The notes beneath the pieces are model-generated. The model worked only from the letters and a program-made list of their open reading frames with translations. It did no database searches and had not been told where the DNA came from. From the NCBI RefSeq assembly GCF_021134715.1, contig NC_060020.1:6696001-6760000 (forward strand): a DNA stretch of 64,000 nt, in the 5' to 3' direction. Origin of the DNA: Daphnia pulex. Its lineage: Eukaryota > Arthropoda > Branchiopoda > Diplostraca > Daphniidae. Made by a program: the position numbers and the translations under genes. This document shows, one piece after another, positions 33,389 to 36,273 of the stretch (position 1 is its first letter; the number at the start of each line of letters is the position of its first letter).

Positions 33389-36273
33389 TCAATCTTTTCG
33401 GGCTCGTCGACGAGTTCCCTTCTCAACTGCAGGTTCCTGAAAGAAAAAAAGCAAATATTTAATTTAGCTGTAATTATCGTTATGGCATGTGTTTTTATCT
33501 TACTTCAGGAACTGCAGCATCTTCTGAACCTTCTTCTTCGGCTTCGTCATCTTTGGCATTATCATCGTCTTTGACTTCATCTTCTTCCCCTTCTAACGGA
33601 GGCACACCTTCACTCTCATCCTCATTTTGTTGGTCATCACCTCCTTCGTCATCTTCACCGGCTTCATCTGTTTTTTTCTGTAGAGCGGCACGAGCGGCAT
33701 CTTGTTTTTCCTTTGCGTTAAATAGATAAGTCATTGAAAAGAAAGTTGCAACGAGACGAGCTAGAATAAATTGCATATTTAGGATTAACTTGGCGGTATC
33801 TCCTTTACATGCAATTATTCAGAATCGCTCATTTCGAGGGAGCAATACAAATAGAGAAGCTTTGATATATACCTGGGAATTGCAGCAGAATGTGAAGATC
33901 AGCACTAAAGGCAGGCCGACAACAATTACGTACACAGCCCAGAGCCATGGGTTTTTATTGGTGTAATTCATCAAACGTTGAACTACGCTTTCCTACAGCA
34001 AATATAAATCAAAATACTGAATATACAATACTAGCGAAAAAACTACGCCAAAGCACATAATAATACGAGTGGAGCGAGAGTAGGAGCAGTAAGAGCGTTT
34101 TAACCGACGGGGTAGGCTAAAATTGTCTTTTTTTAAAGACTACCTCAACAACTCTGCGCCACAGAAACCAGACGTAGAGTGTAACTGGCAAGGAGAGATA
34201 CATGCCATACACCATGAATGCATTCTCTTTCTTGTTCATCCACCGTCGAACGCTCTCAGCGAACGCCTAAAGCCAGGAAGATATGACAAAACAAGGGATT
34301 GTTTGCGAGTCGAGAGGTAGACATTTTCCTCCGATGAACGCTTAAAATAATCTTTTGACGAACGACAACCGTTTCCTACACGAGTCTGCTTTAAAGGCAT
34401 TTCCACCCCATGTGAATCTAACCTGTTCTTCATCTGGACTGTTCACCCATCGAACCAAGTAGATCAGAAAGATGAAAAGTGGACAGAAAGCGACGATCCC
34501 ATAAAATGGCCAAAACCATTCGCTACTATTAGTCCAGCGACCCCATTTCTGAAGCCAATGCCAAGGCTTATGAAAATTCCATCCGTCCGACTAACGGTGA
34601 TGAACAGGCAAGAATATTACTTTTGCTTACAATGTGTGGTGAATTGAATACCAAACTCTCGCCTCACAACGTCAATAAATTTGATTGAATTAAAGTATCA
34701 AAAGAGGAATAAAAGCTTACCTGATCTCTATCGACGAGATTCCTCTTCAGATCAAATGTTTCAGCTGCCCATTGTTCAGAGACGATTTTGTCGTCGGTGA
34801 TGATGAAGTTGTCAAACAGGATGTTATCCGACATGGACCAAATCTCAAGACCCACCGCACCCTAAAGACCGACAAAAAATGTGTTATGTACTAACAATAA
34901 AGTGGTCAATTAGACAAAGCTTACAATTGAAGCCATGTTGAAGGGATGCTTGTCTTCGAAAAAGTCGGGGTTAGGGATCCGGCGTGGTCTCCATTTACCG
35001 CGATAATTTGGGTTATCAATCATGGCTGCTCGCCACTTGCCTTTGAACTTGGGGTTAGCCTTCATCGGAGCCTTCCATAGCCCACAGCCGGGAGCAGATT
35101 CACAAGACGGGTTGTTAATGAGGGGAGCCTCCCACGTGCCATCCATATCTTCATCCCAGTCTTCAGGTTTCTCAGCGCTAGGATCAGGAATCATTTCAGG
35201 TTCATCATCCAACCAACCATCTGGCTTGACGGCATCTGCATCAGCAACTTGTTCGGGTTCATCTTCATCCCAGTCGTCTGGCTTCTTCGCATCAGGATCA
35301 GCAATTTTCTCACGTTCGTCCCAATCATCAGGCTTACGATCTTCAGGATCATCAATTTCGGAAGGAGGGTTCACAGGTGGAGAGAAATCTTCTAAGAGAG
35401 TTCCTTTGTTGACAATTTTGTAATCAACGGACACATCGAAGGTGTTGTCGGGATGAATCATAAGTGTGTACAAATGAGGCTTTCCATCCTTGAAATATTC
35501 GTCGAGTCTAGTATTAGGCTTCTTAGCGTGCTTTTCAGAGAAAGAACCATCTTTGGGATTTTTGTGTTGGAAAATGAAGTGTAACTAGAAAAAGAAAAAC
35601 ATTACTCAAATGTTAAAAAGATTTTCATTAGTTTGCACCAACCTTGTGATCATTTCCACATTTGTCGGGGCCAAACATAATTGTGTATGGTGTCTTGTCT
35701 GTAAACTGAGACAACCTCATTCCTGTTTCCTGAGTTAACAGCTTAATGTAAGCTCCACCACATTCTTGTCCATTCTGGAATGTAACATCATACTGCACAA
35801 TCAATGGTTTGTTTGTGAAAACAAATGGTCTGTCTAATGGAGCAGAAATGGCAGCATGTTTCGCTTTTGATTTCAACACCAAACCTAAATCACCCTTCAA
35901 ACCATCTTTCATCAATGATTCAACAGCCCATTTTCCTACATACAAAATACAATTTAATGTCTATTAGAAAGTTCAAGCACATAGTTAAGTATCACAATTG
36001 CTTACCATCATATTTGGCAATTTCTTCATCAATCCCTTCTTTCTTAGCTTGAGAACGAATCCATTTGGCTTCGAATTCTTCAGGGACATCAAAGTGCTCA
36101 GCGAAATAAATGTGGCCATTAGGTGTAGGGCTTACATAAACTACTTCCTCTGTTTCTTCTGCAACACCTTCAGGAAGCTCTTCAGTAACTGTTGCCTCTT
36201 CTCTGTCGTCATCGTCACATCGCACCGCAATACTTAAACACAGCCATAAGGCTATTAAGAGAATTAGTCTCAT
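33389..36273 (-). CDS. calnexin, ER lectin chaperone
   Basis: Type I membrane chaperone that holds monoglucosylated glycoproteins in the ER. Constant exons: 36273-36006, 35935-35643, 35584-34925, 34861-34721, then one of three alternative transmembrane exons, then 33710-33504 and 33436-33389. With the canonical exon (33992-33873) the protein has 578 residues. Order: signal peptide ([17 protein letters not shown]), lectin domain ([22 protein letters not shown]), P-domain with four KPDDWDE-type and four [15 protein letters not shown] repeats, lectin end ([17 protein letters not shown]), transmembrane helix, acidic cytosolic tail, and a basic end ([10 protein letters not shown]) like the ER-retention end of other calnexins. 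A leader intron lies upstream. It is divergent from PIBF1. Confidence 0.96.
33873..33992 (-). other. calnexin canonical transmembrane exon C
   Basis: A 120-nt, phase 0-0 exon, 40 codons, encoding [15 protein letters not shown] and the helix [18 protein letters not shown] ending FCCNSQ. This is the form that matches vertebrate calnexin, where the helix starts PWLWVVY and ends FCC. Confidence 0.85.
34144..34266 (-). other. calnexin alternative transmembrane exon B
   Basis: A 123-nt, phase 0-0 exon with a TTTAG acceptor and GTAGTC donor, 41 codons. It encodes [15 protein letters not shown] followed by a hydrophobic helix ([19 protein letters not shown]) and RRVVE. It aligns with exon C ([14 protein letters not shown] plus helix). 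Confidence 0.75.
34423..34590 (-). other. calnexin alternative transmembrane exon A
   Basis: A 168-nt, phase 0-0 exon with a TAG acceptor and GTTAGA donor, 56 codons. It encodes a Trp-rich lumenal segment ([13 protein letters not shown]), a hydrophobic helix ([20 protein letters not shown]) and a charged end (NSPDEEQ). It is related in layout and sequence to exons B and C and can replace either without a frame change. Confidence 0.75.

Follow-up and report, generated by a model that had tools for sequence, protein, structure and literature searches.

Dscam1 exon 17 of insects is a pair of mutually exclusive transmembrane exons, only one of them entering a transcript, and the choice appears to affect subcellular location, as described in PMC3364881 and PMC8787164. 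It is the nearest analogue of the locus described here, a calnexin gene of Daphnia pulex whose anchor cluster may work in a similar way. In both genes, tandem alternative transmembrane exons lie between constant outer and inner parts. However, Dscam1 has two such exons and encodes a neuronal surface receptor with reported transcripts, whereas the calnexin gene has three and encodes an ER chaperone whose alternative exon use we infer. We know of no kinship between the two clusters. Anchors are also exchanged in SLMAP, where the spliced tail anchors TA1 and TA2 differ in hydrophobicity and alter targeting, according to PMC2712456. As in our proposal for calnexin, SLMAP splicing swaps membrane anchors of unequal hydrophobicity, although these are C-terminal tail anchors of another protein, unlike those of calnexin. 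No kinship between SLMAP and calnexin is known to us.

Calnexin is usually seen as a uniform housekeeping chaperone, with a location tuned by palmitoylation and phosphorylation. In the mammalian protein, Cys502 and Cys503 are palmitoylated by DHHC6, with consequences for its stability, its association with the translocon and its presence at mitochondrial contacts, as reported in PMC4765739 and PMC9913998. The human protein also has a proline, Pro494, at about the midpoint of the helix, which it tilts (described in PMC9913998). Mutually exclusive exons are not foreign to D. pulex, whose myosin gene is described in PMC2257972 as having four extra mutually exclusive clusters relative to Drosophila.

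The calnexin gene was studied in a window of 64,000 nucleotides, the whole stretch of DNA analysed, and its features are collected in Table 1. The spliced isoform with anchor exon C matched PF00262 over residues 57-428 (E 2.3e-166), which identifies the lectin and P-domain of the calnexin/calreticulin family. A PF00262 profile search of the whole genome (133,188,837 bases, 13 contigs) returned six matches, two in the calnexin gene and four in one gene on contig C10. This gene was considered as a second calnexin and rejected, since its acidic tail ends in HDEL, lacks an anchor and thus marks it as a calreticulin; a second calnexin gene was therefore not found by this search. The basic C-terminus GTRRRARKD resembles RKPRRE, the signal by which vertebrate calnexin is retained, as given in PMC9913998. 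The acceptor of the tail exon, AACGCAAAG (window 33711, minus strand), is poor in pyrimidines, though the exon is constant.

Table 1. Features of the calnexin gene, in positions of the window.
Feature	Position	Strand	Basis or details
Calnexin gene	36273-33389	-	PF00262 and spliced exon model
Coding exon 1	36006..36273	-	ATG at 36273; signal peptide by eye; frame and junction to KYDGKW
Exon 2, lumenal lectin domain	35643..35935	-	spliced model; within PF00262 span
Exon 3, lectin domain and P-domain arm	34925..35584	-	spliced model; PF00262
Exon 4, last lumenal exon	34721..34861	-	donor CAG/GTAAGC
Anchor-exon region	33711..34720	-	four introns round A, B and C: 130, 156, 151, 162 nt
Anchor exon A, 56 aa	34423..34590	-	168 nt; donor GTTAGA
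Anchor exon B, 41 aa	34144..34266	-	123 nt; donor GTAGTC
Anchor exon C, 40 aa	33873..33992	-	120 nt; donor GTATAT
Acidic cytosolic tail exon	33504..33710	-	acceptor AACGCAAAG, pyrimidine-poor
Last coding exon	33389..33436	-	ends GTRRRARKD, then stop

The initial annotation had placed three phase 0-0 exons with their own acceptors and donors in the anchor region, and its coordinates proved exact. Exons A, B and C are each preceded by AG, followed by GT and open in frame, and each of their remaining six forward frames (two per exon) contains at least one stop. The reading frame runs uninterrupted as far as the common stop with A, B or C singly, with all three and with none (five of the eight combinations were built), and from phase and length it follows that the other three combinations are also in frame. 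Spliced singly, each exon supplies one anchor, marginal in the case of B, followed by the shared acidic tail with its basic end. The introns flanking the anchor exons measure 130-162 nt, against 58-70 nt for the other four coding introns of the gene. All five constant-exon donors have G at position +5, as does one of the three anchor-exon donors (that of A, which has T at +3), and this hints weakly at regulation of the splice sites. No donor of the gene fits a U12-type intron, as judged by eye.

Each anchor exon had also been said to encode an amphipathic segment and one hydrophobic helix, and the hydropathy values and amphipathicity shuffles support this. Peak 19-residue hydropathy is 2.24 in A, a marginal 1.52 in B and 2.62 in C, and significant amphipathicity marks the start of all three exons (P 0.012, 0.019 and 0.016 by shuffling, respectively). 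Exon A contains 8 Trp in 56 residues, its amphipathic stretch being Trp-rich, with a single Cys in mid-helix and none at the cytosolic face. Exon B has no Cys, three Trp, a weakly hydrophobic helix and Arg-Arg (RR) at the cytosolic end. Exon C encodes a vertebrate-like anchor with PWLW. The anchors differ in the Cys pair at the cytosolic membrane edge, as the initial annotation had it: the CC pair characteristic of calnexin is found in C and is absent from A and B. N-glycosylation sequons lie just lumenal of the helix in A (NSS, 34590-34423) and C (NYT, 33992-33873), probably too near the membrane for use.

A further in-frame hydrophobic segment (33788-33711, minus strand; hydropathy 1.64) lies directly upstream of the tail exon. 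It was considered as a fourth anchor and set aside because its acceptor has no pyrimidine tract by eye and because such segments arise by chance at 2.1 per kb-strand. The segment is probably a product of chance, although it could lengthen the tail exon through a poor alternative acceptor, and would be a fourth anchor if spliced from exon 4.

Exons A, B and C are very probably diverged tandem duplicates related by descent, since their three-way alignment lies beyond anything obtained from shuffles or from pairs of non-overlapping pseudo-exons. A gapless three-way block of 31 residues scored 127, against a maximum of 65 in 1000 shuffles, and at each of the block lengths 19, 25, 31 and 35 the observed value was reached by 0 of 500 shuffles. 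Among 276 non-overlapping transmembrane-like pseudo-exons of the same genome, none of 6000 pairs reached 127 (maximum 56). An earlier pool of 387 pseudo-exons still held overlapping intervals, and there 5 of 2000 pairs scored at least 127 (maximum 195); the overlaps presumably caused these five high scores. Pairwise shuffles that preserve the composition of core and flanks gave P values of 0.001 for A-C, 0.0008 for A-B and 0.029 for B-C without gaps, and 0.001, 0.002 and 0.049 with gaps. All three pairwise alignments fall in one register, and a Y-x6-P motif occurs in A, B, C and the PDB calnexin 8rjc_9; of 436 null transmembrane cores, 4 contain it. The relatedness asserted in the initial annotation is thus upheld by block, register and motif, but its shared B/C pattern "ES/AESV..R.MN" does not represent the best register: the gapless alignment pairs ESVRRWMN of B with QRLMNYTN of C.

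Each of the three exons has one exact place in the genome. A second match of exon B, at C4:2334219 (E 0.12), was put down to chance. Immediately upstream of this match's downstream neighbour, a coding-looking sequence that by eye resembles a neuralized-type domain, no further anchor exon is implied. The last lumenal segment of calnexin, compared with the genome contigs, found one locus, on a contig from a MAG that is labelled as a proteobacterium, by a short match likewise taken for chance. Neither this segment nor exon A matched any of the viral contigs.

A and B might instead be random open stretches in introns and no calnexin exons at all, and the raw material for such accidents is common. 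Open phase-0 AG..GT intervals of 90-200 nt numbered 9380 in 521.2 kb-strand of the same genome (18 per kb-strand), and 1081 of them (2.1 per kb-strand) had a hydrophobic core (at least 1.5). When these 1081 intervals, to which the scoring was limited, were compared with C, none reached 40, whereas exon A scores 58. The score of B, 34, was reached by eight intervals at four AG sites, which corresponds to an expectation of about 0.011 such intervals per 728 nt. By block score to C, the best of the 276 non-overlapping pseudo-exons had 30, against 34 for B and 57 for A, and none of the 6000 pseudo-exon pairs came near the three-way score. An origin by chance is therefore strongly disfavoured, and we give it hardly any weight.

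Exon C found calnexin among PDB sequences (8rjc_9, E 5e-8), and its CC aligns with the CC of calnexin. The same search of PDB sequences gave no calnexin match for exons A and B. The claim that only C matches vertebrate calnexin thus stands as far as database retrieval is concerned, but not for direct comparison, in which A and B were weakly similar to the PDB calnexin piece (pairwise P 0.008-0.014 and 0.031-0.038, respectively). We take the constant proline of the anchor exons to be the probable counterpart of Pro494, by way of the 8rjc_9 chain and without a numbered alignment.

That C alone retrieves calnexin would also suit a history in which A and B stem from old duplications and have lost their splicing, C being the sole anchor in use. 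The marginal helix of B fits such a history, and B is weak when taken alone (against C, P is 0.029 without and 0.049 with gaps; codon-position P 0.054; hydropathy 1.52). The codon-preference score has no power here: by it A and B look like pseudo-exons (null fractions 0.26 and 0.20), but so do the genuine exons 1 and 2 (0.64 and 0.65). Codon preferences were trained on 11 ORFs of at least 300 aa, presumed to be genes, and the null left out pseudo-exons inside ORFs of at least 120 aa.

The pattern of codon positions speaks against such decay. With the three pairs pooled, positions 1, 2 and 3 were identical in 47, 48 and 22 of 93 cases, where 31.6, 40.3 and 26.5 were expected (P <0.001, 0.029 and 0.88), in a comparison of non-independent pairs that is made within this one gene and not by dN/dS across species. 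The test relied on re-optimises the alignment in every codon shuffle; a first run had held the alignment fixed, which favours positions 1 and 2. For positions 1 and 2 together, A-C (P 0.001) and A-B (0.006) were significant and B-C (0.054) was not, and position 2 was not significant in any single pair (P 0.105, 0.178 and 0.214). Since positions 1 and 2 exceed expectation and position 3 lies at background, the exons appear to be old and under selection at the protein level. Their silent sites look saturated, yet the protein pattern is still there, as would be expected of ancient duplicates maintained for the protein they encode and not of relics. Third positions at background, with positions 1 and 2 above it, imply a long time since duplication, in which an unused exon should have gained stops and lost its AG/GT and its Y-x6-P. 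Given the intron stop frequency in this gene, the chance of both A and B staying open is about 0.0014. We therefore consider it decidedly unlikely that A and B are relics, and favour three anchors retained for use.

One anchor is probably chosen per transcript. Predicted human mutually exclusive clusters, as defined by the WebScipio criteria described in PMC5740500, consist of neighbouring exons in the same frame, similar in length and translation and with GT-AG borders, and by sequence the anchor exons fit this description. A, B and C are neighbours, share the frame, contain no stop and have GT-AG borders, and A and B (56 and 41 aa) differ from C (40 aa) by less than the 20 aa that PMC5740500 allows relative to the search exon. 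Against its similarity threshold of >10, A scores 20.6 and B 12.8 by our own approximation, an end-gap-free global alignment expressed as a percentage of the self score of C and not the program of PMC5740500. B thus lies close to the threshold, a difference from the human clusters, and the cluster here is a prediction from genomic sequence.

Mechanisms that enforce exclusive splicing were sought within the gene. There is no frame lock, since the exon lengths of 168, 123 and 120 nt are all multiples of three and joint inclusion leaves the frame unshifted. Nor are the two introns that separate A, B and C (156 and 151 nt) too short to be spliced, the minimum in the gene being 58 nt. The AG-free zones between the anchor exons, 62 and 24 nt long, gave no sign of a lock by distant branch points, and judged by the length of these zones, branch points of the kind described for OGDH in PMC7969005 look unlikely. 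Pairing between introns of the docking and selector type, by which competing RNA structures control Dscam clusters, was sought in the sequence of this one genome, and none of the six pairs among the four introns showed pairing beyond that of shuffles (P 0.095 to 0.54). As no built-in lock was found, trans-acting RNA-binding proteins are the default guess for what governs the choice among A, B and C. Among human mutually exclusive clusters, 484 of 629 were left to mechanisms other than the known locks, according to PMC5740500.

With no steric or frame obstacle to a direct junction between A and B or between B and C, and with every combination in frame (five of eight built, the rest by phase), the three exons might also serve as independent cassettes, some transcripts containing two, three or none of them. 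Triple inclusion had been held less likely than exclusive splicing in the initial annotation because the chain would cross the membrane three times. Three passes would indeed result, but they would keep the tail cytosolic, so that topology alone is no bar. With two anchor exons joined, the tail would end up on the lumenal side, and omitting all three would give a soluble, calreticulin-like lumenal protein with an acidic tail. However, the exons align as versions of one element, each with its juxtamembrane stretch and helix, and two fused anchors would flip a tail that bears a basic, ER-retention-like end. Combinatorial use is accordingly unlikely in our judgement, and a regulated choice of one exon out of three remains the best reading, if not a proven one.

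The calnexin gene has a possible neighbour in head-to-head orientation, an ATG-initiated open frame at 36674-37150 (plus strand), about 400 bases from the calnexin coding start. Its composition is coiled-coil-like by eye, and it gave no Pfam match at 0.001. If this frame is a gene, the two may have a promoter region in common. Elsewhere in the window, open frames on the minus strand matched the Pfam families of short-chain dehydrogenase (29520-30059) and the Rab-GAP TBC domain (39842-40690), while the long frames 15922-17733 (604 aa) and 10494-12968 (825 aa), also on the minus strand, had no Pfam match at 0.001.

Taken as a whole, we consider it likely that the anchor exon was duplicated twice and that one of A, B and C is spliced in, yielding three calnexins with different anchors. 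The membrane-anchor exon would have been doubled twice in tandem, long ago. Splicing would then connect exon 4 with one of the three anchor exons, and this in turn with the acidic tail, giving products with lectin domain and cytosolic tail in common. Exon C would supply the classical anchor, whose CC pair is palmitoylated in mammals so that calnexin is directed to the translocon or to contacts with mitochondria. With A or B, palmitoylation at this position would be impossible; A would add a Trp-rich amphipathic lumenal stretch, and B would give a weakly hydrophobic helix. The palmitoylation switch of mammalian calnexin, described in PMC4765739 and PMC9913998, acts at the same membrane-edge position as the CC pair of exon C. 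It is post-translational and reversible, however, whereas the switch proposed here is the choice of an exon.

More tentatively, and with somewhat less than even confidence, we suggest that splicing sets the place of the chaperone in the ER. Exon choice would fix, per cell type or developmental stage, what mammals set by reversible palmitoylation, with A holding independently of lipid by its Trp stretch and B holding weakly. Expression of the anchor isoforms, their use one at a time and an effect on location are all presumed in this suggestion. Because silent sites appear saturated, the duplication should be common to other branchiopods or to a wider group. In the branchiopod Artemia, seven calnexin isoforms, three of them female-biased, were recovered by Iso-Seq and RNA-Seq, as reported in PMC8465105. 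We found no earlier description of alternative calnexin anchor exons among the matches listed for calnexin splicing and isoforms in the open-access literature; one may exist in subscription papers, supplementary tables or database annotation.

A calnexin gene with three anchors would be a natural experiment that separates the anchor from the lectin and the tail. It would allow testing if helix, kink or lipid decides between the translocon, the rough ER and mitochondrial contacts. Calnexin would also bring an ER-resident chaperone into the group of genes that splice alternative transmembrane segments.
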